Assembly (NCBI RefSeq): GCF_007004645.1
Contig: NZ_ML660022.1
Location: forward strand, 108,775-172,774
DNA length: 64,000 bases
Direction of reading: 5' to 3'
Source: Aliiroseovarius halocynthiae
GTDB lineage: Bacteria > Pseudomonadota > Alphaproteobacteria > Rhodobacterales > Rhodobacteraceae
The translations under genes were made by a program, and so were the position numbers. Below the pieces are notes generated by a model, which made no database searches, was not told where the DNA came from, and was given only the letters and a program-made list of their open reading frames with translations. Shown here piece after piece: positions 1 to 13,972 of this stretch (its first letter is position 1; every line of letters begins with the position of its first letter).

Positions 1-1
1 G

Positions 2-157
2 ATAGCAATCTATTCCGGCGACCGCCTTTACCTGCTTCTCAGACGTGCTGATCAGCCTGATCATGTGGTCTGTTTTGTTTCAAAAGGGCACACGAATGTC
101 GGTCTGGCCTTGGCCAAATCCACATCGAAAATGAATATGATTTCGGCTGCGGTCTAG
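2..157 (+). CDS. 3' end of an unidentified gene (partial)
   Basis: Frame 2 is open from the window edge and stops at TAG 155-157, giving 51 residues that begin IAIYSGDRLY and end MISAAV. The stop lies 14 bases before the next start on the same strand, so the gene is probably the preceding member of the operon that continues to 11.5 kb. The residues have a beta-strand-rich look but no motif I recognise. The product cannot be named from its tail; it could be another component of the kinase/dynamin system. Confidence 0.55.
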   Translation: MAIYSGDRLYLLLRRADQPDHVVCFVSKGHTNVGLALAKSTSKMNMISAAV

Positions 158-171
158 GCGGGAAACAGGTT

Positions 172-1068
172 ATGAACCAAGCAGATATCATCGACCGCCT
201 CGAGCAAATCGCCGAAGGCGCAATCGCAAGGCGCGGGCGTTCTATCGCGCTGAAGCAGGACACGGCGGACGCGCGCAGACACGCCGCGGTTGCCGGCCTG
301 CAGGCAACCATCTTGCCCCGTTTCGTGCGCTTTTCGAACGCGCAAAACGACTCGGCTACGCTGTCGGTCAACAACGGTCGCGTGGCTGAAATCACTGATG
401 TGACAATCAACGGGACCATAGAAAACCTTGCTGATGCGACGGCCCTACAGATAGCCGAGGTGCTGATGAAAGTTTGTACCAGAGAGGGCGTTGAGCTGGA
501 CAGCTCAGCCCCGAATGACGCGGATGATATCGCAACGAAGGGCATCTATGCCTCTGATATCAAAGCGGCTTTCGAAGAGATTTCGGTGGATGCTCCTGCG
601 GAAGAACAGGCGCCTGTCCAAGAAACGGCCACGCCGGAGGAGCCCCCGACTGTAGCGCCCCCCCCTCCGCCAGAACCCGAGGAATCCCCTGCAGAACCTG
701 AGAAAGCAGCTGGCAAATCGGTCTCGGGTCTTGCCGCCGACTTCTTTGCCAGCGTGACGAAAATCGGCGACCAGCGTGTATTGGTCGCGCACGATGACAA
801 ATCGGTGGCTGGTCCAGACGGAATACTGACGCAGAACATTGATGTGGTGCAACAACTGATGGATGACTTGTCCGCATGGGAAGACGATAGCGATCATGGA
901 GGCACCGCGCCTCAATTGGTGATAATGCGCTCCCAAAGCCAAGACATGCCAAGCCTGACAATTTGTCGAGATTCGGACGCGACAGCCATGACAGCACACC
1001 CTACCCGAAAGCTCGGTTCTGTTGTCCAATTGTGGAAAACTTTGACAACGCAACAAAAATCCAGCTGA
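172..1068 (+). CDS. Hypothetical protein with Pro/Glu-rich linker, first complete gene of the dynamin/kinase cluster
   Basis: This 298-residue protein has no signal peptide or membrane segment, so it is probably cytoplasmic. Residues 1 to about 135 look like a folded helix/strand domain. Residues about 140-180 are a Pro/Glu/Ala linker with a run of prolines. The C-terminal 115 residues form a second small domain (LAADFFASVTKIGDQRVLV and onward). I do not recognise either domain. The gene starts 14 bases after the preceding stop and lies 78 bases before the first dynamin-like gene, all on one strand, so co-expression is likely. Acidic proline-rich linkers also occur in the second GTPase, the kinase and the FHA protein of this locus, which suggests a shared assembly style. 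Function unknown. Confidence 0.75.
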   Translation: MNQADIIDRLEQIAEGAIARRGRSIALKQDTADARRHAAVAGLQATILPRFVRFSNAQNDSATLSVNNGRVAEITDVTINGTIENLADATALQIAEVLMKVCTREGVELDSSAPNDADDIATKGIYASDIKAAFEEISVDAPAEEQAPVQETATPEEPPTVAPPPPPEPEESPAEPEKAAGKSVSGLAADFFASVTKIGDQRVLVAHDDKSVAGPDGILTQNIDVVQQLMDDLSAWEDDSDHGGTAPQLVIMRSQSQDMPSLTICRDSDATAMTAHPTRKLGSVVQLWKTLTTQQKSS

Positions 1069-1146
1069 ATACGGCTATAGATTGAAATGTTGTTACGACC
1101 GCCTTGCGAGGTGAGATGCTTTGAAAAGTGATTTGGATGTCAATTG

Positions 1147-3183
1147 ATGGATGAGGCCCGTCGACAGGAATTAATTCGGATCGCCGAACAGATGGCGCAA
1201 ACGGCAAGCGATGACGCGCAGCCGTTCATCGCGCGTATTTTGACCGATTTGAAAGCCCTGAAGCCTAGCATAGCCTTTGTCGGCCAGATCAAGGCCGGCA
1301 AATCACGGTTGATTAACGGCTTTACTGGTCAGGCGAATTTCTTGCCATCAGACGTGAATCCGTGGACCACAGTGGTAACGGACATGCATTTCGGGCACCC
1401 CTCCGGCCGCGCCAAGGGCGGCGTCTTCCACTTCTTCGACAACGACCAGTGGCAGGCATTGCTGTCAGAAGGTGACGAAATTCGCGGTCTGCTACCCGAT
1501 AGTGAAGACGATTATAAACGCCAGATCATCGAAGAGCAGATCGAGGCGATGAAAACGCGCGCTAAGGCTCGGTTAGGTGAGCGCTATGAAGATCTGCTGG
1601 GCACGTCGCACGATCTGGAAGACATGACGCAAAGCGATTTGGCCCGTTATGTTAGCGCCGGAGCCGATCCCGAGGATGAGGGCGAGGAACGCGACGAGCA
1701 CACCGCGCCCTATTTCAGCGACCTGACCCGAAAGGCCGAGGTCTTTTTTGAACAGGGTCTGTTCCCCTTCCCGCTGACCGTCACCGACACTCCGGGTATC
1801 AACGACCCGCTCCTGATCCGGGAAGAGATCTCGCATCAATATTTGCGCAATTCGGATTTCTTCGTGGTTGTTATGTCGGCACACCAGGCGTTGTCGCAGG
1901 CCGACCTTAAACTGTTTCGCTTGATGCAGGCACTTGAGCTTGGCCAGATGGTTGTCTTCGTGAACCGCGTAGACGAGCTGAATCGCGGTGTCGAGGATGC
2001 TGTATCTGTGCATGCCGATGTGCGAGCTGGGCTTGAGCGAGCTCTGGGTAGCAGCCAGATGCCCGTCATCATGGGAAGCGCGCAATGGGCCCATTATGCG
2101 CTGACAGGCGAAAGTAACGGCATTGATCATGATCAGATTTTGGCCTGGCTGAAAGCGCACCCACAAAAGATGCAACGGTTTCTGGAGGAGATTGAGCGCC
2201 TGAAGAAAACACGGCCGGAAGGTGCTGCTGAAAGCGCCCTGCGCCTTGCGGCCATGATCGCGTCGGGCCTGCCGGATTTGCGCAGCCATGTGATCCGTGA
2301 AATCTCAGACGGGCCGCGTGCCGAACGCATTCACATTGCCGCGCAGCATCTGCGCAGTTTCGCCGCCAGCGAGCTGGAGCGCCGCCGTGTGCATCTGAAG
2401 CTGGTGGATGATGATGATGGTGACAACGATTTCGTGCAGATGGAAGACTCTATTCGTTCGCAGCTAAGTCAGATGATCATCGACGCCAAGGATCAACTGA
2501 ATACCCATGCCGAACAAAGCACCGAAGCATTGAGGCAAACACTGAATATTACGGTGCGCGATATGGTGTCGGACGTAGTTCAGGGTCGCGATGGCGTTTC
2601 GCCCTTGTTGGATCCCGGCGGCGCTACCGAACTTGATTTCAGCAACCTGCGCCTGTCGATGCGTAACCAGCTTCTGGAAGTGGCAAAGTCTCAGTGCCAA
2701 AGCATGTTGAACGAGCTATACACCGTTGACATGAAATCTAACGCGGCTCTTGTGGAACGCGGAAGCGAGGACGAAGACACGCCCCTCAGCGTGGATACAA
2801 GTGCACTGCGCTGGTACCGCCCGGACACCAGCGCTTTGACCCGTGGCATCACGGTTGAACTTCGCATCTCGTGGCTGGCGCGCCTGTTGAAACAACAATC
2901 CGTGGTCGCACGCGCTGAGCAAATGATCACCCGTGAGTTCCAGTCCATCGCATCTGATCTGGTGGATCGATTCCATTCCGACCTGGCAGAACGGCTCACG
3001 ACAGTCATCGATCACCACCTTGCAGTTCTGGCTACGCGCTTCGAAGAACTGACTGATGATGAAACCGCATCTAGACCTGATGCACATGCCGCATTAGAAA
3101 ACGCCAAGAGACTTTCAAATGAGCTGGAAGAGCTATTCGACGTGGGCGAAGAGCTTGAACAGCGACTCGAGGCGGCCACGTGA
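1147..3183 (+). CDS. Dynamin-like GTPase 1
   Basis: A large GTPase of the dynamin superfamily (678 residues from ATG 1147; a TTG just before it at 1144 is a less likely start). The P-loop GQIKAGKS is at residues 46-53, a G2 threonine lies in NPWTT, the G3 motif is DTPGIND (214-220) and the G4 motif is NRVD (273-276), a variant of N/TKxD. The G1-to-G3 gap is long, with an acidic helical insert. The C-terminal 350 residues are mainly helical, as expected for a dynamin stalk; no clear transmembrane paddle is visible. Its stop overlaps the start of a second GTPase by four bases. Bacterial dynamin-like proteins are often encoded as adjacent pairs that remodel membranes. A role in membrane remodelling here is inference. 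Confidence 0.85.
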   Translation: MDEARRQELIRIAEQMAQTASDDAQPFIARILTDLKALKPSIAFVGQIKAGKSRLINGFTGQANFLPSDVNPWTTVVTDMHFGHPSGRAKGGVFHFFDNDQWQALLSEGDEIRGLLPDSEDDYKRQIIEEQIEAMKTRAKARLGERYEDLLGTSHDLEDMTQSDLARYVSAGADPEDEGEERDEHTAPYFSDLTRKAEVFFEQGLFPFPLTVTDTPGINDPLLIREEISHQYLRNSDFFVVVMSAHQALSQADLKLFRLMQALELGQMVVFVNRVDELNRGVEDAVSVHADVRAGLERALGSSQMPVIMGSAQWAHYALTGESNGIDHDQILAWLKAHPQKMQRFLEEIERLKKTRPEGAAESALRLAAMIASGLPDLRSHVIREISDGPRAERIHIAAQHLRSFAASELERRRVHLKLVDDDDGDNDFVQMEDSIRSQLSQMIIDAKDQLNTHAEQSTEALRQTLNITVRDMVSDVVQGRDGVSPLLDPGGATELDFSNLRLSMRNQLLEVAKSQCQSMLNELYTVDMKSNAALVERGSEDEDTPLSVDTSALRWYRPDTSALTRGITVELRISWLARLLKQQSVVARAEQMITREFQSIASDLVDRFHSDLAERLTTVIDHHLAVLATRFEELTDDETASRPDAHAALENAKRLSNELEELFDVGEELEQRLEAAT

Positions 3184-4478
3184 TTAACTTTCCAGAAACA
3201 AACGAAGTGCTTGGAAATCTGAACGAGTTTCTTTCCAAGACAGAGGCCGCGCCCAGCTCGGCCCCGTTGGATGCAATGCGGGCACAAGCGCAGGCACATA
3301 TCGACCAGCTAGAAAGCGCCGTCACAATCGGTTTTGCCGGCGAGTTTGGCGCGGGTAAGTCCAGCTTAGCCAACATGCTAGCCGGCACCGACATCCTGCC
3401 CACAGGTCCGCAGCACCTGAAACTGCCCCTAGTCATCGTTAAGTATGCTGCAGAACCAGAAACCTCGGTCGGCTGGTGGGATAGGCCTGCGGATAGTACT
3501 CTTGGAATTGATTTGGAAAAGGCCGCCGAGCATTCACCGGATTTCATCTCGATTGGCCTTCCATCAGAGGCCCTGCAGGAGTTGGTTCTGTTTGATCTGC
3601 CGGGCGCGGGCGCGTTGGATGAAAGCTACAAGCAGACGCTCGAGCTGCTGAAGTTCGTCGATTGCGCGATTTGGTGCACCAACGGCACCAATCCCTGGCG
3701 CGAGACTGAACGCTTCCTATGGTCGCATGTCTCGCCCGACCTGCATGAAAACAGCTTGCTGGCTGTAACCCACACAGACCTACCGACCGTACAAGAAACA
3801 CTGGCACGCCTCGTTCCGCATTTGAAGCGCGACAGCGAAGGGATGTTTCAGGCCGTAGTACCAATCGCCACTCCCGTCGCTGCACAAGCCATGGCAAACG
3901 AACCCGAGCCGGATTTCGAGCTTTGGTCTTCTTGCGGTGGCGCTGATCTGGCGCAATGTGTTCTGGATCTGGCTGCCACGCACAAAGCGCGAGATCTAGA
4001 GAAAGCCAAGGCGGATTGGGAAGCAACACTCGCTCCTGCGCTTGTGGCGTTGGCTCCGACACAGGCCGCGACAGAGCCGGAACCTGAAGAAGCCCCTGCC
4101 CCCGCGCCAGAACCTCCCGCTGGATCCGCAAAGGCATCCCAAGCCGACACCGCCCCCCTTTCCAATGCACTCCTCGACGAATGGAAGAGCGAGATTCGCT
4201 CGCTGACAAACGAACTTCGCGCCTCGCCGGACATCGAACCGACCGAGCTATTGCGCTTGTGTCAGGAGCTGGTTGATGACTTCACCCAGAAGTTGGAACC
4301 TGGCAGCAGCGTCGATTCATCCGCCGATTGGATCGTGGGCGAATTTGAAAACGCTTCGGATCTATTGACGTTAATGCAGTTCGAGGACACGCCAAACGCA
4401 TCTGAAACTGTATTGAGCATCCTGACGCAGCTCACTGACAATCTGTCGTGGTCTGGAACGCGCGCAGATGACGGCTAG
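3180..4478 (+). CDS. Dynamin-like GTPase 2 (partner)
   Basis: Starts with GTG 3180 inside the stop of the preceding GTPase gene (GTGA overlap), so translation is probably coupled. The P-loop GEFGAGKS is at residues 54-61, G3 is DLPGAG (139-144) and a G4-like THTD is at 197-200. The protein is 432 residues, shorter than its neighbour. After the GTPase domain comes an Ala/Pro/Glu linker (about 290-325), then a short helical tail. The most likely role is a heterotypic partner of GTPase 1, as in paired bacterial dynamins. The shortened stalk suggests a regulator rather than a self-sufficient fission machine; that last point is inference. Confidence 0.82.
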   Translation: MINFPETNEVLGNLNEFLSKTEAAPSSAPLDAMRAQAQAHIDQLESAVTIGFAGEFGAGKSSLANMLAGTDILPTGPQHLKLPLVIVKYAAEPETSVGWWDRPADSTLGIDLEKAAEHSPDFISIGLPSEALQELVLFDLPGAGALDESYKQTLELLKFVDCAIWCTNGTNPWRETERFLWSHVSPDLHENSLLAVTHTDLPTVQETLARLVPHLKRDSEGMFQAVVPIATPVAAQAMANEPEPDFELWSSCGGADLAQCVLDLAATHKARDLEKAKADWEATLAPALVALAPTQAATEPEPEEAPAPAPEPPAGSAKASQADTAPLSNALLDEWKSEIRSLTNELRASPDIEPTELLRLCQELVDDFTQKLEPGSSVDSSADWIVGEFENASDLLTLMQFEDTPNASETVLSILTQLTDNLSWSGTRADDG

Positions 4479-4805
4479 TCAAGACTTATCCACAGAATCA
4501 CGTCAACCAAGCTAAGAATCATTCAGCCAACCGGGCACAAATTCTTTTCATCTTGTGTAATTGATCAAGGATTCTGTGCACGCAAACATATGGCGCACGC
4601 CTATATCTTCTCCGTTTGAGCAACAAAGCCACTACGCGGCCAGATTTGTCGCGTTGAGTCATAGCGAAGCCATGCGCCCGCCACAGTTTGGTCTCAATTC
4701 ATAAGTCTAACTTTCAGGCATCAGGGGTTGCATTTACCATCACAATAAAGGCCAAAAGGTCAGATGTATCCCTCGGTAGTAATTGAGACACGCAGGTAAG
4801 ACTAA
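4479..4805. other. 327-base gap before the kinase gene
   Basis: No plausible coding frame is seen. The stretch is more AT-rich than its neighbours and has no strong hairpin with a T-tract. It probably carries a promoter for the kinase-FHA-phosphatase-LysM run, which would make that run a separate transcript from the GTPase genes. No specific operator could be recognised. Confidence 0.4.
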
Positions 4806-6926
4806 ATGAGCCAGAATCAGGCCTCGGGGCACGATGTTGAAAACCCCCAAATTGAAGCCTTGCAGCCCGGTGAGAAATTGCTGCGCGGCCAGTACGAGAT
4901 TCTAAGCTTCCTGAACAATGGTGGTTTTGGCGTCACCTACCTTGCACGCGACAGTTTAGACCGGAATGTTGTCATTAAGGAATGCTTCCCAAGCGCGCTT
5001 TGCCGCCGCGATGGCAGCAAGGTTGAAGCTGTTGACCCAGCCTATGCGGAAGACCTGCGCTCGATCATTGATTTGTTCATTCAGGAAGCCCGCAACCACG
5101 CACGTCTTGTTCACCCGAACATTGTGAACGTGCATCAGGTTTTCGAGGACAATCAGACCGCCTATATCGCGATGGATCTAATCAACGGCGGCGACTTGCT
5201 GGATTATATTCAAGATGACCGCAACGACGCCTCGCCGGACTTTATTGTAAAAGTCACCGAGAAGATGCTGTCCGCTGTATCATTCATCCATGAAAACGGG
5301 ATGCTGCACCGCGACATCTCGCCCGACAACATCCTGATCGATGAGCATGGCGAACCTGTGCTGATCGACTTCGGCGCAGCCCGCGAACAGGCCGCAAACC
5401 GTTCCGCCGCCCTGCTGACTTTGCGTGTCATCAAAGACGGCTACTCGCCGCATGAATTTTATGCCCGTGGTGCCGATCAAGACGAAACCAGCGACCTGTA
5501 TGTGCTGGCAGCGACCCTGTATCACGCCATCAGCGGCGAGCGCCCGATCGACGGAAAATCGCGCTTGGACGCGTTCAACGCAGGCAGGGACGATCCCTAT
5601 GTTCCGCTTGCCGGTCGTTTCGCAGGATATCCCATCGGCTTCTTGGAAGCGCTGGACAAAGCGATGGAAGTTCACGTCGTCGACCGCGTGCAATCTGCGC
5701 TTGAATGGCTGCGCATGTTCCGTGGCCCGGCTGTTGTGTTCGAAGAGTTCGGCTATCGCCCCAGCTCGGTCATCGTGGCACTTGAACGCCCCGAAGATGA
5801 CACGCGGGTCAAAACCGAAAATGCAGAAGCTTTGGTCACCGCTCTGCTGGCCAGCGAAGAAGATGTCGCAACGGCTGCACAGTCCGAAGGCCTGACGTCT
5901 TCTGCTGACCCAGACGCTGAGTCCAGCGACGAACCAGCGGTTACGGTCGTTAAAAGCGGTTCGGGCGGCAGCAGCAAAGCCATCATCGGTATCGTTGCAC
6001 TTCTGGCGCTTGCCGCTGGTGGGTACTTCGCGTTTAGCGGATCGGGCAGCGACGGCGGAGAGACCGTCGAAGTTGCCGAGGTCACCCCGGCACCGGTTGC
6101 TCCGGCAGTTGCCGAAGAAGCCGAACCTGAAGTGGAAGCCGTCGCCGAACCTGAGCCTGTCGTAGAAGAGGCTGCCCCGGTTGCGGAAGAGGTGGTTGAA
6201 GAACCCGCCCTCGTCGAGGAAGAAGCGACCGAAACCGCCGCAGCTGAACCCGAGGCCGTTGCCGAAGAAACAGCTGAAGAGGCAGCTCCAGCACCTGTCA
6301 CCACCGATCCTGCAAACCTGCTGCAAAACCAGATCGCCTTTGGGCACTGGGATGTCGAGATCCCCTTCGCCACCAGCACGCGCCGCCTGTCGATTGGCCA
6401 AGCCGTTGCAATCACAGGAATTGACCCCAATCGTGACATGTCAATCATCGGTGACTGGGTGCGCCGTGGGGCAATCATATTCTCGGTCAACGGCAAGTCT
6501 GTTACTGACAGTGCAAGCTTCGCAACCCGCATTCTTAACGATGTAAAAGTGGACCCTGACGGCTATATCCGCGTCGCGGCGCGGTATCGTCCGGCGGGCA
6601 GCCCGCGCGCCCTGAACGGTCTTTTGGCTCTGCCTGCTATCCGATTCTTCGGGTTGGAAAATGGGCTTACCCTGACCGGGCACAATGCCGACAACGGCGA
6701 CTGGGCCCTACAGGTCACCCGTGTATCCGACGATTTTAAAGATGATCTGCGTGAAGGCGATATCTTGCTGTCCGAAAACGTAACTGGCCAGCAACTCAAC
6801 GCCATCGAAAGCCTTGACCGCGTTCTTGAAACCCTTGCCGCTGACGGTGTGTCTCAGGCACGCCTGACCGTGTTGCGTAACGGCGGCGAGGTTCAGGTTC
6901 CTATGCAACTTGCTGAGGAATCTTGA
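4806..6926 (+). CDS. Transmembrane Ser/Thr protein kinase with periplasmic PDZ-like domains
   Basis: A 706-residue Hanks-type kinase. The glycine loop NGGFGVTY is at 38-45, the ATP lysine at 58 (VIK), the catalytic HRD at 168-170 with Asn 175, and DFG at 188-190. GYSPHE (212-217) takes the place of the usual APE/PPE segment. One membrane helix lies at about 392-411. It is followed by a long Glu/Pro/Ala linker (about 420-500) and a C-terminal part with two PDZ-like segments (about 530-595 and 620-700, the first with VNGKSV and the second with GDILL). With one helix the kinase should face the cytoplasm and the PDZ part the periplasm. FHA and PP2C genes follow directly, so this looks like a phospho-switch that reads a periplasmic signal. 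It resembles PpkA-type kinases of type VI secretion, but no secretion genes are present. Confidence 0.88.
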   Translation: MSQNQASGHDVENPQIEALQPGEKLLRGQYEILSFLNNGGFGVTYLARDSLDRNVVIKECFPSALCRRDGSKVEAVDPAYAEDLRSIIDLFIQEARNHARLVHPNIVNVHQVFEDNQTAYIAMDLINGGDLLDYIQDDRNDASPDFIVKVTEKMLSAVSFIHENGMLHRDISPDNILIDEHGEPVLIDFGAAREQAANRSAALLTLRVIKDGYSPHEFYARGADQDETSDLYVLAATLYHAISGERPIDGKSRLDAFNAGRDDPYVPLAGRFAGYPIGFLEALDKAMEVHVVDRVQSALEWLRMFRGPAVVFEEFGYRPSSVIVALERPEDDTRVKTENAEALVTALLASEEDVATAAQSEGLTSSADPDAESSDEPAVTVVKSGSGGSSKAIIGIVALLALAAGGYFAFSGSGSDGGETVEVAEVTPAPVAPAVAEEAEPEVEAVAEPEPVVEEAAPVAEEVVEEPALVEEEATETAAAEPEAVAEETAEEAAPAPVTTDPANLLQNQIAFGHWDVEIPFATSTRRLSIGQAVAITGIDPNRDMSIIGDWVRRGAIIFSVNGKSVTDSASFATRILNDVKVDPDGYIRVAARYRPAGSPRALNGLLALPAIRFFGLENGLTLTGHNADNGDWALQVTRVSDDFKDDLREGDILLSENVTGQQLNAIESLDRVLETLAADGVSQARLTVLRNGGEVQVPMQLAEES

Positions 6927-7122
6927 TACGTATCATTCACTGACTGCCAGAATGTGTTCTCTGCGGGCCAGTTGGTTCCGGGCGGATGTTGGATCCGCTG
7001 CAGTGCTTAACAAGTATCTGAGTACCTGAAAACTTAACGTCTGGCTGGGTGAGATACCAGGTTGGGATGTCGATCACGTGCTGGGGTTGTACCCCAGTAA
7101 GCGAGTGAAAGGTGAAGTAGCT

Positions 7123-8136
7123 ATGTTCAAATATAAAAGTCCGCTCAGCCGGCTGCTTGAAGGTAACACAAAAACTGAAGATCAAGACGACGCTCTTGAG
7201 GAAGAGCGTAACGAAGCCGAAGAAGAGCCCATTGCGGATCTGAACGCTCTTCGTCAGGTTCTTGCGGGTGGCAATCAAGCTGCTGAAGCCAAAGAAGAAC
7301 CAGCCGAAATCACAGCGCCTGAACGCGCTGCGGTCGCCGAGGTCAAAGCCGAGGACATCACGCCTGTTACCGTTGAGGAAGACATTGCCGAAGTCGAAGC
7401 AACAGCTGCCCAGACCGAGGATGCAGGGGTCGACGTGATTGTAAACACGATCCTGGCAGAAGACGTTCCCAACTCGGCCGGGCCCAGCATCGCGCTGACC
7501 GAACCCACTGGGATCGCTGAAATCGCGCCGATCAAGGTCGAAGCCGCCCCGGCTGACGCCGAAATCGAACCGGAAGAGATTGCGGAGCCTGAGCCAGTTG
7601 CCGTGACCGAGCCCGTCGTCGAACCCGTTCCCGCCGCGACTCCTACGCAGGCACCTGCGGCTGAGGCTGAGGCGAAGATTGATCGCAGCGAACGCGTGAA
7701 GACCACCTTCCTGGGCTTTGAGCGCCCCGACGCACATGTACAGGACAGCATGGAAGCTGCACCTGTATCGAAGCGGGAAGTAGACCAGAACAGCTTCCCC
7801 GTAGGGTGGCTGGTCATCACCGAAGGTCCGGGGCGCGGCACCAGTTTTTCGCTGATTGAAGGCTTGGCTCAGCTTGGCCGCAATGACGACCAAGCCATCC
7901 AGCTTGACTTTGGTGACAATGGCATCTCGCGCGCGGGACACGCTGTTGTAGCCTATAACACTGAAGACCGAACCTGCTATCTGGGCCATGGAGGCAAAGC
8001 CAACTTGGTGCGCCTGAACGGCGGACCAGTCCTGAGCACCGTTCCCCTATCAAATGGTGACATGATCCGCATCAGCGACACGACGCTTCGGTTCGTAACG
8101 TTCTGCGGCGATAACTTTGACTGGCAGGACAAGTAA
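7123..8136 (+). CDS. FHA domain protein with acidic Ala/Glu/Pro linker
   Basis: The ATG at 7123 is chosen because AAAGGTG sits just upstream; a GTG at 7078 would add 15 residues. The protein (337 residues) starts with a basic stretch (MFKYKSPLSRLLEG). About 180 acidic, Ala/Glu/Pro-rich residues follow, and a C-terminal forkhead-associated domain covers roughly the last 110. The FHA core shows LGRNDDQ, the SRAGHA segment, LNGG and a LSNGDMIRI strand. FHA domains bind phosphothreonine, so this is the expected reader of the upstream kinase. It is soluble and cytoplasmic. The phosphatase gene starts three bases after its stop, which implies one transcript. The long flexible arm suggests a scaffold. 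Confidence 0.85.
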   Translation: MFKYKSPLSRLLEGNTKTEDQDDALEEERNEAEEEPIADLNALRQVLAGGNQAAEAKEEPAEITAPERAAVAEVKAEDITPVTVEEDIAEVEATAAQTEDAGVDVIVNTILAEDVPNSAGPSIALTEPTGIAEIAPIKVEAAPADAEIEPEEIAEPEPVAVTEPVVEPVPAATPTQAPAAEAEAKIDRSERVKTTFLGFERPDAHVQDSMEAAPVSKREVDQNSFPVGWLVITEGPGRGTSFSLIEGLAQLGRNDDQAIQLDFGDNGISRAGHAVVAYNTEDRTCYLGHGGKANLVRLNGGPVLSTVPLSNGDMIRISDTTLRFVTFCGDNFDWQDK

Positions 8137-8139
8137 ACT

Positions 8140-8925
8140 ATGCTGGCAAACCCTGCATATGACATTGCCCTTGTGGCAGATCAAGGCAAGCGGGACACGC
8201 AGGAAGACGCGATCGCAGCGCGCTTCTTTGATGACCTTGATGCAGGATATGTCGTTGTCGCGGATGGTATGGGTGGTCATGACGCTGGGGATGTTGCCTC
8301 GGCGCTTGTGAAGACCACCTGGCAATCTGAACTGGACGGTATTCTTGAAGGTGGAGACTGCAAAGACGGTCATGTGGTTGAACAGCTAAACCAGGTGGTT
8401 TTGCGTGCCAACGACGCCGTTGCCAACTATCTTGACGAAAATGGATCCGAACTTCGTATGGGCTCGACCCTTCTTGGTGTGCTTTTGCGTGGCAAGCGGT
8501 TGAACTGGGTCTCGGTTGGGGATTCCCCGCTTTACCTGTGTCGCAACGGGTTCATGATGCGGATAAACGAAGACCACTCGATGGCCCCGATGATCGACGC
8601 GCAGATATCGGACGGCACTCTGTCTGAGGAAGAGGCACGCACCCATCCCGATCGTAACCAGCTGACATCGGTCATTATGGGTGCGCCCGTACCCAAGCTG
8701 GATTGCCCCGAGACGGCCGTCGAACTGGCCAAAGGTGACGTGCTTTTGGCGGCCAGCGATGGGCTTCAGTATCTCGAAGATGATCAGATTCAATCGTTGG
8801 CCATCAGCTATCGTGATCAGCCAGCCCGCGACCTTGCTGTAGCGCTTGTACAAGCCCTGCGTGCGAAGGCGCATCCTGATCAGGACAACACAACGATCGC
8901 AGTCATCAAACCGTTAAATATCTGA
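8140..8925 (+). CDS. PP2C-family Ser/Thr phosphatase
   Basis: At 261 residues it is the normal length for a stand-alone bacterial PP2C. The metal-binding motifs are intact: RDTQEDA near residues 18-24, ADGMGGHDAG at 41-50, SVGDSPLYL, ASDGLQYL and the final DNTTIAVI. No membrane segment or signal peptide is present. It starts three bases after the FHA gene. It should reverse phosphorylation by the kinase encoded at 4806-6926, on the kinase itself, the FHA protein or the GTPases. The kinase/FHA/PP2C trio matches the PpkA/Fha/PppA logic of the type VI threonine phosphorylation pathway, here used in another setting. Confidence 0.9.
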   Translation: MLANPAYDIALVADQGKRDTQEDAIAARFFDDLDAGYVVVADGMGGHDAGDVASALVKTTWQSELDGILEGGDCKDGHVVEQLNQVVLRANDAVANYLDENGSELRMGSTLLGVLLRGKRLNWVSVGDSPLYLCRNGFMMRINEDHSMAPMIDAQISDGTLSEEEARTHPDRNQLTSVIMGAPVPKLDCPETAVELAKGDVLLAASDGLQYLEDDQIQSLAISYRDQPARDLAVALVQALRAKAHPDQDNTTIAVIKPLNI

Positions 8926-8959
8926 ACTAAAGAATCTATTCTGAGGAACCACAAGAACT

Positions 8960-10375
8960 ATGAGAAACCTCTTCTTCGCATCCGGTTTGGCAATTGCCGC
9001 AATGACAGGTTCTGCCGTCGCCCAAGAGGCTTGCTCGGACTATGTGGTCAAGCGAGGCGATAGCCTGCGCGAGATCTCGATGCGTGCATTTGGCACCACC
9101 GATTTCCGCAAAATCTATAACGCCAACAAGCAGGCGATCGGCAAAGACCCGAATATTATCCGTCTTGGGATGACACTGTCGATCCCGTGCGATGACAATT
9201 CTGTCATTCGAATCGTCACTGCAAACAGCGATGCCGAAAAAATGGCGCGTGAAATGTCAGCCGAGCTGATTGCCGCCGCCGAAGCTCGCGCCGCCACTGC
9301 GATCGCCGAGGCTGAAGCCCGCGTTGCAAGCGCCGAAGCTGCCGAAGCCGAAGCTCAGAAAGCCAGCGAAGCTGCCATTGCTGCAGCCAAGGCCGAGGCC
9401 ACAGCTGCCAGTGAGGACGCTGTCGCTGCCGCTAAGGACGAGGCTGAGGCAGCCATTGCTGCTGCCAAGGCGGAACGTGAAGCTGCTATGGCCGCGGCTG
9501 CCGCCGAACGCGAAGCTGCTGTTGCCACCGCCAAAGCAGAAGCCGCCGCCGCCATCGAAGCTGCCCGCGCTGAAGGTGCCGCGCTGATCCGCGAAGCCGC
9601 CGCCCCCGCTGCATCGGCTGTGGACGAACGTCAAATCCTGCTGATCACCGGCGGCAACTATGCGCCCTTCACCGACGAAAATCTGCCCAATCGCGGCCTG
9701 TACACGAAGCTTGTGGAAACCGCATTCCTGCGCGCCGCACCCGAGCAATCATACAAGATTCAGTTTGTGAACGACTGGAGCTCGCATCTGGATCTGCTGA
9801 TGCCGACGCTGGCCTTTGATGGCACATTCCCATGGTCGCGCCCGAACTGTGAAGAGGCCGATGCGCTGTCTGAAAAGGACCGCGCGCGTTGCGAGACCTA
9901 CAACTTCTCAAACCCTTTCTATGAAGTGGTGGATACTTTCTTTGCGCAGGATGGATCTGGATACGAAGCCTCTCTAAGTTATGCAGATTTCGCCGGAGCA
10001 CGGATCTGCCGCCCTGAAGGCTGGTCTTTGACCCATATGAATGCCGTCGGCCTGTATGAACCTGCAATCACGTTGGTCCGCCCGATTTCGCCCGACGACT
10101 GCTTTCATGCCATCGCAAATGGCACCGCTGATATCATCGCAATCGAAGCCCATCTGGCCGTCGAAGCAATCGGTCGGCTGGGTTATGAAGGCGTCATTAT
10201 CGAGAACCCGAACCTTGCAGCAATCAAATCTCTGAACGTGATGACCCATGTGGACCACCCGGATGGGAAAACCGTTCTTGAGATGTTGAACCGCGGGTTG
10301 GACATCATGCAGCAATCTGGCGAGTGGCGAGACATCGTGTCGACTGCCCTGCGCCATCAAATGGACAACAGTTAA
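8960..10375 (+). CDS. Secreted LysM protein with alanine-rich coiled coil and solute-binding-like domain
   Basis: A signal peptide (MRNLFF...GSAVAQ, about 22 residues) leads to the periplasm. A LysM domain follows at about 27-76 (YVVKRGDSLREI with a closing IRLGMTLSIPC), which should bind peptidoglycan. Residues about 90-215 are an Ala/Glu/Lys-rich helical rod, probably a coiled coil. From about 225 to 471 the protein resembles a type 3 extracellular solute-binding protein, with paired cysteines. No ABC permease is encoded nearby, so the binding domain probably senses rather than feeds a transporter. The gene follows the phosphatase by 34 bases and is the first of two related secreted proteins. 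A role as periplasmic input for the kinase is inference. Confidence 0.78.
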   Translation: MRNLFFASGLAIAAMTGSAVAQEACSDYVVKRGDSLREISMRAFGTTDFRKIYNANKQAIGKDPNIIRLGMTLSIPCDDNSVIRIVTANSDAEKMAREMSAELIAAAEARAATAIAEAEARVASAEAAEAEAQKASEAAIAAAKAEATAASEDAVAAAKDEAEAAIAAAKAEREAAMAAAAAEREAAVATAKAEAAAAIEAARAEGAALIREAAAPAASAVDERQILLITGGNYAPFTDENLPNRGLYTKLVETAFLRAAPEQSYKIQFVNDWSSHLDLLMPTLAFDGTFPWSRPNCEEADALSEKDRARCETYNFSNPFYEVVDTFFAQDGSGYEASLSYADFAGARICRPEGWSLTHMNAVGLYEPAITLVRPISPDDCFHAIANGTADIIAIEAHLAVEAIGRLGYEGVIIENPNLAAIKSLNVMTHVDHPDGKTVLEMLNRGLDIMQQSGEWRDIVSTALRHQMDNS

Positions 10376-10408
10376 GGCCTTGCTGGTCAAAAATCTGGAG
10401 GATAGGAA

Positions 10409-11518
10409 ATGCTTAAACAAACAGCAAAACAACTTGCAATCGCGACGACGGCGGCCATCGCATTGTCGGCAGGGGTGGCGAGTGCTCAGCAAGCCTGTAG
10501 CAACTACACCGTAGCTGATGGTGATACATTGGCGACGATCGCAATCGCTGCCTATGGGACATCTAACTACCAGCCAATCTTCAACGCGAACCGTAGCGGC
10601 ATTACAAACCCAAACGCGCTCGAACCGGGACTGGTTCTGGCCCTTCCATGTGAAGACGGTAGCCTTCCTGACGGACGTTCGGCCCAAGAGATCATCGCCG
10701 CAGAAGAAAGCCGCTTTGCTCAGACAAAACGCTCTAGCACATACGAACCTCCGATCAAGCTGGTTACCGGTAATGGTTGGGCGCCATTTGCAGATGAATC
10801 GCTGAACGGCGGTGGCTTCATTACCCGTCTGGGCACCACCGCGCTGCAGCGGGGCGGCAACGCGCGCGACTTCTCGGTCAGCTTTGTTGACGATTGGAAT
10901 TCACATCTCGACGTTTTGCTGCCTTTGGGTGCTTTCGACGTCTCTATGGCATGGGTGCAGCCTGACTGTACAAACCGCACCTATGAATGGTCGAAAGAGA
11001 CTGAAGTACGTTGTACGCAGTTTGATGCCTCGGTTCCCGTCTACGATACTGTGTTTGGTGTCTATTCACTGCCGGATAGCTCCTATGCCGGAGCGACATC
11101 GTATGAACAACTGAAGGGTTCGACCGTTTGTCGCATGACCGGTTGGGGTTTGGCCGACCTGGAAGGCGCTGGTCTGCAAGCACCTGAAACCATCACGCTG
11201 CTTCAGCCTGTCACTGCACGCGAGTGTGTAGATGCCGTGCTGAACGGCACCGCGGATGTGGCCACCTTCGAAGTCCAGTTGATGTCGGATACTCTTTCCG
11301 AGATGGGGCTGACCGCCAATGATGTCGTCGAAAACCCCTTCGTGTCGACCGTTCAGTCGCTGCGCTTTATCGTGCACCGCTCGAACCCGTTTGGTCGCCA
11401 GTATCTGTCGATGCTGAACAAAGGTCTGAACGAGATGCGCGAGTCTGGTGAATGGTACGCTGTTGTGTCGGACACCCTGCGTGAGCACAATGAAAAGCTG
11501 ATGGCTGCATCGAACTGA
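10409..11518 (+). CDS. Secreted LysM and solute-binding-like protein, shorter paralogue
   Basis: Has the same design as the preceding gene without the coiled-coil rod: a signal peptide to about residue 27 (ASAQQACSNY), a LysM domain at about 31-80, then a solute-binding-like domain to residue 369. Both paralogues share phrases such as YxVxxGD, APFxDE, VDDWNSHLD/VNDWSSHLD, a GTADV/GTADI segment, and SGEW before the end. A ribosome site (GGAGGA) precedes ATG 10409. A perfect-stem terminator follows 23 bases after the stop, so this is the last gene of the run. Probably periplasmic and peptidoglycan-bound; its ligand is unknown. Confidence 0.78.
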   Translation: MLKQTAKQLAIATTAAIALSAGVASAQQACSNYTVADGDTLATIAIAAYGTSNYQPIFNANRSGITNPNALEPGLVLALPCEDGSLPDGRSAQEIIAAEESRFAQTKRSSTYEPPIKLVTGNGWAPFADESLNGGGFITRLGTTALQRGGNARDFSVSFVDDWNSHLDVLLPLGAFDVSMAWVQPDCTNRTYEWSKETEVRCTQFDASVPVYDTVFGVYSLPDSSYAGATSYEQLKGSTVCRMTGWGLADLEGAGLQAPETITLLQPVTARECVDAVLNGTADVATFEVQLMSDTLSEMGLTANDVVENPFVSTVQSLRFIVHRSNPFGRQYLSMLNKGLNEMRESGEWYAVVSDTLREHNEKLMAASN

Positions 11519-11541
11519 TCACGCCTGATCTGAAAACAGAA

Positions 11542-11570
11542 ACGGCCGGCATTGCGCCGGCCGTTTTTTG
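11542..11570 (+). terminator. Rho-independent terminator of the kinase/dynamin cluster
   Basis: A perfect 9-base-pair stem (ACGGCCGGC with GCCGGCCGT, 11542-11550 and 11556-11564) has a 5-base loop and is followed by TTTTTT. It sits 23 bases after the last LysM gene. The same palindrome also lies just beyond the end of the convergent CBS gene but has no T-tract in that direction. Confidence 0.92.
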
Positions 11571-11588: not shown

Positions 11589-11993
11589 CTAGCTGCTTTG
11601 TGGCTCCGCGAAGCTCAACACCATATCGCGCAGAGTAACCAAACCACAGGCGGTCCCGTTTTCGATCACCAATGCCCGGCGATGATCCAAGCGTGACAAC
11701 AGGCGTACGGCGTATTTGACGGCCATGTGGTCAGCAACAGTCAGGGCGGGCTTATCCATCACCTCGTACACATTCGTGCGGTCGAGCGATTTGTTCAGAG
11801 CAATCGCCCGTTCAGCGATCATATCGATCGAGACGATGCCATATTCATCATCCTCGTGACGCCGCTCGATCACCAGCGCGGTGACCCCTTTGGCGTCCAT
11901 CTCGTTTACCGCATCCCGTACCGTTGCCAGACCGCTGATCATATAGATCGTGCCCTGCATCACATCGCGGACTTTCTTTTTGTTCTCGTCCAT
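11589..11993 (-). CDS. CBS domain protein
   Basis: 134 residues from ATG 11993, chosen because AAGGAGG lies seven bases upstream; a GTG directly before it is closer to that site. The protein consists almost entirely of two CBS repeats, an adenosine-nucleotide-sensing module (VRDVMQGTIYMISGLATVRDAV; then NVYEVMDKPALTVADHMAV, and LVTLRDMVLSF at the end). Its start overlaps the stop of the upstream PII-like gene (ATGA-type overlap). Given two membrane proteins and a PII-like protein in the same operon, it probably gates a transporter in response to cell energy state. The effector is not known. Confidence 0.85.
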   Translation of the reverse strand: MDENKKKVRDVMQGTIYMISGLATVRDAVNEMDAKGVTALVIERRHEDDEYGIVSIDMIAERAIALNKSLDRTNVYEVMDKPALTVADHMAVKYAVRLLSRLDHRRALVIENGTACGLVTLRDMVLSFAEPQSS

Positions 11994-12346
11994 CACAAGT
12001 CCTCCTTGCTGATTTCCTCTTGGATCGACGCGATTTGCCCAGACAGGCCGATTGCGTCTTCAATATCCACTTGGAAGGCGACCCCTGTTCCGGGATCGTC
12101 ATCAAAACGACAGGCTGCACCGATGCTTTCAAGGATCAGGCGGCTGTGGTGTTCTTCGACCAGAAACAGGATCACGTCGCGCTGCCCACCCACGGTCAGA
12201 CCAAAGAAGGTCTTTGTCGGGTTCAACCCTTCGCCCCGCGCCGAGGTGATGACGGTACACCCGGTCGCGCCCTTTTCGCGGGCGGCCTCGATGGCGGTGT
12301 CCGTCAGTTCATCCTGTGTCATCACAATGATCAGTTTAAACTTCAT
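11993..12346 (-). CDS. PII-like signalling protein
   Basis: 117 residues starting [16 protein letters not shown] at ATG 12346, which has GGAGAGA upstream. The length and the beta-alpha-beta pattern fit a PII/GlnB-like fold, with a loop around GLNPTKTFFG where PII proteins carry the T-loop. The uridylylated tyrosine region of classical GlnB is not recognisable, so this is not the nitrogen regulator glnB. It overlaps the CBS gene downstream and the DUF1538 gene upstream. PII-like proteins commonly plug or regulate membrane transporters; the DUF1538 pair is the obvious partner here, by inference. Confidence 0.75.
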   Translation of the reverse strand: MKFKLIIVMTQDELTDTAIEAAREKGATGCTVITSARGEGLNPTKTFFGLTVGGQRDVILFLVEEHHSRLILESIGAACRFDDDPGTGVAFQVDIEDAIGLSGQIASIQEEISKEDL

Positions 12347-13133
12347 GGTTCTCTCCTTGGCTGTCCTGATCGGCCTTGCGGCGCGACAACCAGTTGCTGA
12401 TTTGGGCATAGCCCATCACGGTAATCATGGGAAACAGGCTGGCCAAAGCGATCAGGCCAAACCCATCCAGAAGGGGGCTGCGCCCCGGCACGGTGCTGGC
12501 CAATCCAAGGCCCAGCGCCGCCACCAACGGCACAGTCACAGTCGATGTCGTCACCCCGCCGCTGTCATAGGCCAGCGGGATGATCATGCGCGGGGCCATG
12601 AGGGTCTGGATCACGACGATCACATAGCCCACGATCATGTATTGATAGAGCGGCGTGCCCGTCACGATGCGGAACGTCCCAACCGCAAGGCTGATCGCCA
12701 CGCCGAATGCGACGGCGATACGCAGCCCGTTGGCCTTCACCGCGCCACCAGATGCCTCTTGCGCCTTCAGAGCGACGGCGATCAGCGACGGCTCGGCAAT
12801 CGTGGTCGCAAAGCCGATGGCGAAAGCGAAGATATAGACCCAATAGTAATCCAGCCATTCGACCGCTGCGCCGGGTTCAATCCCCAAGAAAGCCGGGTCG
12901 GTCAGCTGCGCAGCCATCTCGCGGCCCAGCGGGAACAGGGCAAGCTCCAGTCCAGACAAGAACAGCGCGAGGCCCAGAAGCACATAGAACATGCCCAGTG
13001 CAACCTTCTTGGTATGCGGGATCGGCTTGCGCAGGATGACAAGCTGGAACAGCAGCAGCACTGCCGCGATGGGCAGCACATCGCGCACAACGCTGAAGAA
13101 AGTCCACAAAAGGTCCGTCAGGATCGTGATCAT
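12336..13133 (-). CDS. DUF1538 membrane protein, copy 1
   Basis: A 265-residue integral membrane protein of the DUF1538 family with about seven hydrophobic helices. It shares its core with the neighbouring gene: a LALFPLG segment near residue 70, a [12 protein letters not shown] segment, an [25 protein letters not shown] block, and a final [16 protein letters not shown]. Acidic and Ser/Thr residues inside the helices ([16 protein letters not shown]) look like an ion or solute path. It overlaps the upstream copy by four bases (ATGA) and the PII-like gene downstream, giving a tight four-gene operon. The transported substrate is unknown to me. Confidence 0.85.
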
Positions 13134-13870
13134 GTCGCCACCACCAATCCGAACAGAAGCACGAAGATGATCGGCATCAGGGACGCAAAGGCGATCAACC
13201 CGAACCCGTCGATCATCGGGTTACGCCCCTTGATGACCGACGCCAGGCCAACGCCCAGAGCCGTTACGAGTGGAACGGTGATGGTCGAGGTCGTGACGCC
13301 CCCGCTGTCATAGGCGATACCGATGATTTCACGCGGAGCGATGGGGGTCAGGGCGACCACCATGATGTATCCTCCGATGATCAACCATTGGATCGGCCAG
13401 CCCATCAGGATGCGGAAGACGCCCAACACCAAGGACGCGCCGACGGATGCAGCCACGGTATAACGCAGGGCGGTCGCCATGAAGTTTAGCTCGGCCTCGC
13501 TTTGCCCGATCACACCAGCCTCGGACATCACGGTTGCGGCCTCGGCCCCGACGGCGATCAGGGCGGGCTCGGCCACCGTGGTGCCGAAGCCAAGGCTGAA
13601 GGCGAAAAGGACCAGCAGCGGAAGCGAGCCACGCAGGGCGAGCGCATTCGCAAGCGCTTCGCCCAGTGGGAAAAGTGCCATATCGAGGCCACGAATGAAA
13701 ATCGTCAGGCCCAAAAGAACAAACAGGAAGCCCAGTGCGAACTGGCCCAGATTGTCGATGGGTTGCTGCAACACAACAAGCTGGAAGAAGCCCACGATCA
13801 AAAGGATCGGGGCAAGGTCACGGGCAGTGCCACCCAAATAGCCGAACAGCTTTCCAAGCGTATCGGTCAT
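13130..13870 (-). CDS. DUF1538 membrane protein, copy 2
   Basis: 246 residues from ATG 13870, which has AGGAAGG just upstream; a start 24 bases earlier has no such site. It is clearly homologous to copy 1: [56 protein letters not shown] and [17 protein letters not shown] segments in the same order. It is the first gene of the operon with copy 1, PII-like and CBS genes. Two half-similar membrane subunits suggest a heterodimeric channel or carrier. Confidence 0.85.
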
Positions 13871-13972
13871 ATGCCCCTTCCTGCGTTGCGCCATTGGTTA
13901 TGCATTCATACCAATGATGTAACAGCCACATAGCAACAGGGCGAGCTATGATTGAAATCAAACCAACTGGAC

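Follow-up and report, generated by a model that had tools for sequence, protein, structure and literature searches.

Several described bacterial systems share parts with the gene cluster reported here. It lies at the start of a 64,000-nucleotide stretch of the Aliiroseovarius halocynthiae genome, henceforth referred to as the window, and encodes dynamin-like proteins (DLPs), a Ser/Thr kinase, an FHA protein, a PP2C phosphatase, a predicted Roadblock-fold protein and two LysM proteins. The threonine-phosphorylation pathway of the type VI secretion system (T6SS) comprises PpkA, Fha and PppA, and kinase/FHA/PP2C trios of this kind control type VI secretion. The present cluster likewise combines a transmembrane kinase, an FHA protein and a PP2C protein but differs in containing dynamin-like GTPases and in having no adjoining T6SS genes. 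PASTA kinases (PknB/Stk1) are Ser/Thr kinases with a single membrane span and a possible wall-sensing role. The kinase of this cluster resembles them in its single span and possible role, whereas its ectodomain is PDZ-like without a PASTA match, and sensing would fall to the separate LysM proteins. Actinobacterial conservons contain a histidine-kinase-like protein, a DUF742 protein and a Ras-like GTPase. They are similar in uniting a sensor kinase, a Roadblock protein and a GTPase in one operon and differ in that neither the histidine-kinase-like protein nor DUF742 has a Pfam match in this cluster.

The GTPases themselves have two further precedents. In PMC6104087, the paired Campylobacter proteins Cj-DLP1/2 are associated with membrane tethering, and in PMC4159319 the E. 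coli dynamins LeoA/B/C are associated with vesicle release. The likeness lies in adjacent dynamin-like genes and in the sequence kinship of one cluster protein, g6, to Cj-DLP1. The difference is that the partner protein here consists of a G domain plus a low-complexity tail, and that a kinase, an FHA protein, a PP2C protein and a Roadblock-fold protein are clustered with the DLPs, none of which is named for those systems in the accessible text of the two papers. According to PMC9481161, MglB is the GTPase-activating protein (GAP) for MglA in Myxococcus. A Roadblock-fold regulator adjoining GTPases is common to MglA/MglB and the present cluster, whereas the GTPases here are dynamin-like and the action of the Roadblock-fold protein (g4) on them is a proposal.

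The core parts of this cluster very probably form one system. The complete run comprises 12 genes in the order g1, DLP (g2), G-domain partner (g3), Roadblock (g4), g5, DLP (g6), G-domain partner (g7), kinase (g8), FHA (g9), PP2C (g10), LysM (g11) and LysM (g12). Nine co-directional open reading frames (ORFs) occupy positions 2-11518 of the window, the first being truncated at the window edge. An earlier interpretation made from the letters of the window, henceforth the sequence-only reading, had reported these nine genes with two dynamin-like GTPases. The nine are present, but the run starts 4.7 kb 5' of the window, and the upstream half, including the Roadblock-fold gene and a second DLP pair, had been missed. 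Located outside the window are g1 (144 aa), g2 (DLP, 671 aa), g3 (G-domain partner, 665 aa) and most of g4. Four cluster proteins, rather than two, exceed the Pfam cut-off for Dynamin_N. The features within the window are as follows.

1..157, + strand: g4, Roadblock/LC7-fold protein of 144 aa by predicted fold (final third in the window; whole gene at L008:4497-4931)
172..1068, + strand: g5, conserved protein of 298 aa (ORF)
1144..3183, + strand: g6, dynamin-like GTPase of 679 aa, the second DLP of the cluster (Dynamin_N; PDB relatives; G1, G3 and G4)
3180..4478, + strand: g7, G-domain partner of 432 aa with a Pro/Ala-rich tail (Dynamin_N; composition)
4656..4735, + strand: conserved block in the gap before the kinase, a candidate second promoter or leader (alignment of 6 gaps)
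4806..6926, + strand: g8, Ser/Thr kinase of 706 aa, predicted to span the membrane once, with a PDZ-like ectodomain (Pfam)
7078..8136, + strand: g9, FHA protein with a long Ala/Glu-rich N-terminal part (Pfam FHA; composition)
8140..8925, + strand: g10, PP2C phosphatase of 261 aa (Pfam)
8960..10375, + strand: g11, LysM/solute-binding-like protein of 471 aa with an Ala/Glu-rich linker and a signal-peptide-like start (Pfam; joint profile)
10409..11518, + strand: g12, LysM/solute-binding-like protein of 369 aa with a signal-peptide-like start (Pfam; joint profile)
11540..11569, + strand: terminator-like hairpin with a T run, closing the cluster (z -3.5)

Conservation was assessed in a sample of 292 genomes of the order, representing 112 genera, in which relatives of g6 were accepted at E 0.001 or better. 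Such a relative was found in 97 genomes and 40 genera. From these, 111 loci of up to 20 kb, covering all 97 genomes, were collected and their ORFs scored against profiles derived from the cluster plus some of the same loci; L094 was left out of the locus counts, trees and motif counts, with the longer L175 used in its place. The kinase, FHA and PP2C genes were found together within the DLP locus in 86 loci, corresponding to 82/97 genomes and 32/40 genera, so the co-occurrence whose absence would have refuted the sequence-only reading was observed, with the genes of a genome sharing a single locus. Thirteen comparison loci of equal size, collected around LysM genes that lie apart from any DLP (L109 and L110-L115 being excluded as they contain module genes), carried no other module gene (0/13). 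No flanking-gene cluster of the 86 module loci recurred in more than 11 of the 32 genera. A wider survey of the class (385 genomes, threshold E 1e-30) detected the DLP subfamily in 2 genomes, both from the family of the window, and one of the phylum (349 genomes, threshold 1e-8) in 11, of which 8 belong to that family and 3 are short G-domain matches elsewhere; as these surveys scored three candidates per genome, distant versions may be missed.

Three kinds of arrangement were distinguished. The 12-gene form is present in the genome of the window and in all 16 g6-bearing genomes of the sample genus g21 (Ruegeria by named matches). It is also found in 5/5 named Aliiroseovarius loci, some of which end within the last gene, and on a Ruegeria megaplasmid, where public annotation lists g1, g4 and g5 as "hypothetical". 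The common form runs kinase, FHA, PP2C, partner, DLP, partner, Roadblock, g5, and is exact in 57/111 loci, with no LysM gene. The third kind consists of tandem DLP quartets without a kinase. In these DLP-G-DLP-G quartets (L054-L058, L138, L142, L156 and L190), a Roadblock-like gene mostly stands in front, and in L190, a plasmid of Rhodobacter sp. CZR27, a sensor histidine kinase gene comes next. A small form was also seen in L044 and L047, where a conserved ORF of ~180 aa stands in front of Roadblock-like, g5-like, DLP and partner genes; that of L047 has an ABC-type ATPase-like ORF inside.

Both DLPs of the 12-gene form retain their GTPase motifs. Motifs G1, G3 and G4 are intact in 17/17 first and 17/17 second DLPs of this form, and G1 and G3 are kept in 112/113 of the other DLP rows. 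The Dynamin_N scores were 53.1 bits for g6 and 40.1 bits for g7, both above the cut-off, and sequence comparison identified Campylobacter Cj-DLP1 and Nostoc BDLP as PDB relatives of g6. In a tree of 115 DLPs, built by a quick method that warned of long branches, each of the two DLPs, first and second, of the 12-gene form occupies one side of a branch; 12 further loci of genus g21 (L042, L043 and L065-L074) were left out of this and the kinase tree. Among the named relatives of g6, those from Aliiroseovarius are the closest, at 80% identity. A further relative, P0016 (73% identical), is recorded under the Bacteroidota name Gelidibacter sp. F2691, and the record is likely mislabelled or contaminated.

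A G-domain partner gene accompanies the DLP in 111/111 loci. Neither g3 nor g7 is a full dynamin; each is a G domain with a Pro/Ala-rich tail, so that g7, counted as a second dynamin-like GTPase in the sequence-only reading, does match Dynamin_N but resembles a bare G domain plus tail. Partners located 3' of a DLP keep G1 in 145/145 rows and G3 in 137/145. In the common form, the partner located 5' of the DLP has G1 in 57/73 rows and a G3-like pattern in 7/73, and on that account may be a pseudo-GTPase. Judged from their composition, the Pro/Ala-rich tails of g3 and g7 and the Ala/Glu-rich part of g9 are plausible phosphorylation sites.

The predicted identity of g4 comes from a fold search rather than from sequence. 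No Pfam match was obtained for 14 relatives at E up to 1, and the only PDB match by sequence, lemA at E 0.55, was discarded as meaningless. Using AlphaFold2 (AF2) models, g4 was predicted to adopt a Roadblock fold closest to MglB, and 2/15 g4 homologues (P0124 and P0134) bear the UniRef name Roadblock/LAMTOR2. A Roadblock-like gene is present in 103/111 DLP loci and 91/97 genomes, and g4 is predicted to be a GTPase regulator of the Roadblock type. A g5-like gene is present in 89 loci and 84/97 genomes; its AF2 model was poor and gave no confident fold match. Only g1 and g5 are without a nameable family or fold, and the novelty of the cluster is its combination of parts.

The closeness of the predicted g4 fold to MglB raises the alternative of a polarity or localisation module, in which the Roadblock protein and the GTPases would form a positional switch of the MglA/MglB kind, with no membrane remodelling by the DLPs. 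The GAP activity of MglB cited above and the lack of a clear membrane span in the DLPs are in keeping with such a role. The GTPases are dynamin-like and not Ras-like, however, and this alternative is considered quite unlikely.

The kinase, FHA and PP2C domains scored 106.5, 27.0 and 43.5 bits in Pfam, each above its own cut-off, in agreement with the FHA and PP2C assignments of the sequence-only reading. A single hydrophobic stretch at residues 392-410 of g8 bears out its description there as a single-pass kinase, while the PDZ-like repeats proposed for its ectodomain are a weak likeness: Pfam PDZ_2 was matched in 6/10 relatives (best E 3.4e-4), and the DegP PDZ tandem at E 0.08. No Pfam PASTA match was obtained in the whole kinase or in 10 ectodomains, and the NCBIfam model PknB_PASTA_kin gave 144 bits against a cut-off of 450.

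Both g11 and g12 exceed the Pfam LysM cut-off of 20.9 (21.4 and 22.6 bits, respectively), and their starts resemble signal peptides. The solute-binding-like domains attributed to both in the sequence-only reading proved fainter, since SBP_bac_3 matched g11 at 18.8 bits, under its cut-off of 26.4, and did not match g12 in Pfam. In the PDB, a joint profile of g11, g12 and their relatives reached glutamine/amino-acid-binding domains (best 6h30, E 1.3e-6) as well as LysM proteins (Kbp). The label solute-binding-protein-like (SBP-like) is applied on the basis of the sub-cut-off match and this profile reach to glutamine-binding domains.

LysM proteins are linked with the module in four arrangements. 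The first is the 12-gene form, to which the variants in G072 and G211 belong. In G106 three copies separate the kinase from FHA, and on a Leisingera plasmid, whose DLP half is divergent, two copies do so. The fourth consists of kinase-LysM-LysM cassettes standing by themselves in G151, G155, G171, G175 and G242. A weak opposite-strand match in L048 (34 bits) was left out of the LysM locus count. The DLP loci of G155, G171 and G175 contain FHA and PP2C genes without a kinase, while the cassette lies elsewhere; because the kinase is lacking from the DLP locus, this gene distribution suggests that the cassette supplies it. The DLP locus of G242 is truncated at a contig end. In a thinned tree of 81 kinases, the 13 LysM-neighboured kinases occupy one side of a branch with a Shimodaira-Hasegawa approximate likelihood ratio test (SH-aLRT) support of 100. 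LysM proteins (E <= 1e-30) were detected in 54/97 genomes with the DLP versus 18/195 others, a contrast put to a Fisher test that ignores kinship and taken from a list in which a few genes are partial or interrupted. Kinases with a large ectodomain are found in genomes having a LysM protein in 35/40 cases, compared with 15/48 for those without. Pairs of LysM/solute-binding-like genes with no module genes nearby were also seen in L105-L108 and L122-L124, where some neighbours may be polyhydroxyalkanoate (phasin/PhaC) genes.

A mechanism uniting these parts may be proposed, in which LysM sensors signal through a receptor kinase to an FHA/PP2C switch and on to Roadblock-gated DLPs at the inner membrane. 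The sensors would attach to peptidoglycan through LysM and report a wall fragment or solute through their solute-binding-like lobes. The sensor state would be received by the PDZ-like ectodomain of the kinase, whose substrates, judging from the families involved, would be the FHA protein together with the Pro/Ala-rich tails that g3 and g7 carry; the FHA protein would then bind the tails, and PP2C would reverse the phosphorylation. Docking would alter the gating of g2/g6 GTP turnover by g4 and g5, whereupon these two DLPs would gather at the inner membrane, on its cytoplasmic side, to tether, fuse or cut it. Taken as a whole, this mechanism is the preferred reading, though tentative, with the case for it nearly balanced by the case against. 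That the output is envelope repair or vesicle release is guesswork by analogy, as the known DLP pairs act in membrane tethering and vesicle release. The broader proposal is that Rhodobacteraceae possess a self-contained, phospho-switched and Roadblock-gated dynamin machine, which in its Aliiroseovarius/Ruegeria form is connected to solute receptors anchored on peptidoglycan, by which wall state would command inner-membrane fusion or fission; this is held as a rather doubtful possibility.

Several observations weigh against this mechanism. The trio of kinase, FHA and PP2C is missing at the DLP in 15/97 genomes, 7 of which have DLP-only forms. Besides G155, G171 and G175, these 15 include G080 and G242, cut by contig ends, and G124, with kinase and PP2C; the remainder have DLPs and partner with or without Roadblock and g5. 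Three sample genomes from the genus of the window are without g6, and a clear membrane span was found in none of g2, g3, g6 and g7. Of the five AF2 models made for g4, two were of low quality (pLDDT, the predicted local distance difference test, of 53 and 50), and no precedent for Roadblock control of a dynamin was found in the literature. Concerning the sensors, G151 has a complete module with a soluble kinase in addition to its cassette, and 13/20 fetched LysM loci are without any other module gene. The association of ectodomain and LysM protein amounts to one ancient split, or one independent pair, and not to many independent changes. Finally, a large ectodomain is missing from 48/88 module kinases.

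Because of this last count, wall sensing is not general, and input from the wall belongs to some forms at most. The path from LysM protein through kinase to GTPase advanced in the sequence-only reading thus fits the four gene arrangements without holding for the module at large, and its LysM wall sensing has in its favor the link to one kinase clade and against it the LysM proteins that occur alone. The same data bear on the alternative of a general membrane-stress machine, whose core of kinase, FHA, PP2C, DLP, partner, Roadblock and g5 would answer a cytoplasmic or membrane signal and to which the LysM sensors would be a late addition in one kinase clade. The commonest form without a LysM gene, the kinases without a large ectodomain and the single clade of LysM-neighboured kinases are all in its favor. 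The 12-gene form, however, keeps its LysM genes in 17/17 sample loci and 5/5 named Aliiroseovarius loci, and this alternative is regarded as unlikely.

It was also considered whether the module regulates type VI secretion as a relict or in detached form, given the role of such trios and the presence of tssB in 33/97 DLP genomes. T6SS was sought in these genomes through tssB, the one gene searched. It was absent from the genome of the window and from the four named Aliiroseovarius genomes, and present in 5/22 and 28/74 of the other sample genomes, leaving 64/97 negative. The nearest tssB on the same contig as a module is ~56 kb away (G015), and no Pfam match to a T6SS gene was obtained just 5' of the cluster, where T6SS core genes would have refuted the sequence-only reading. 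The T6SS link was rejected on these grounds, in line with the absence of secretion genes noted in the sequence-only reading, and the chance that the module is such a regulator is negligible.

Phage defence, named in the sequence-only reading as one possible role, would cast the cluster as LeoBC-like dynamins with a defence kinase. In PADLOC, whose library gives no cut-off, LeoBC matched at 40.6 bits at best with partial coverage, and many PD-T4-6 kinase models matched the kinase domain, the best at 152 bits. The patchy occurrence of the DLP (97/292 genomes) and its plasmid carriage in Leisingera and Ruegeria could be read in the same way; the 18 plasmid records with the DLP are all from Ruegeria, Leisingera or Rhodobacter. 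Set against this, the PADLOC matches are weak or generic, no defence match was obtained among 10 neighbouring genes, no phage record carrying the DLP was found, and no nuclease or toxin domain was matched by Pfam in the cluster proteins. Both flanks, moreover, are common to the window and four of the five named Aliiroseovarius loci, the fifth sharing the upstream flank and ending in the last gene at a contig end. A phage-defence island is accordingly unsupported, and a defence role is judged very improbable.

Bacterial dynamin-like GTPases are widespread, and little is known of their activation. Encoded beside the dynamins of this cluster are a kinase and a phosphatase, a phospho-reader, a probable regulator of GTPases and, within one clade, candidate sensors. 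With the core together in 32 genera, experiments on how a bacterial dynamin is controlled come within direct reach in marine bacteria that can be cultured. Should g4 act on the DLPs, Roadblock and dynamin GTPase control, studied apart so far, would be joined; MglB-style control of dynamins is not described in the literature found. No title or abstract in which Roadblock, FHA or PP2C genes are joined to a bacterial dynamin was retrieved by a search whose coverage excludes all preprints and most subscription papers; PMC7016017 and PMC10329633 proved to concern different subjects.

The boundaries of the cluster were also examined. The hairpin and T run confirm the terminator that the sequence-only reading had placed at the end of the run. 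A gap of 327 bp precedes the kinase, and its block at 4656-4735 is conserved between Aliiroseovarius and Ruegeria far above the remaining gap. Rfam lists no match for the window. The block is perhaps a second promoter or leader, to judge from its conservation, and a single transcript for the whole cluster is therefore not assured. By Pfam, the region 5' of the cluster contains DUF2167, isocitrate/isopropylmalate dehydrogenase family and endonuclease/phosphatase family genes, together with a tRNA. The DUF2167 gene directly 5' of the cluster (L007:12835-13785) is present in 1/21 genomes of the same genus, namely that of the window. A mechanosensitive-channel gene lies 5-9 kb 5' of the module in the same genome (L007:5788-7182) and on two Leisingera plasmids (L191:2303-3712 and L192:2399-3745), which may be chance. 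On the opposite strand 3' of the cluster, at window positions 11589-13894, are CBS and P-II-like genes and two DUF1538 membrane genes, which could form a P-II-controlled transporter.

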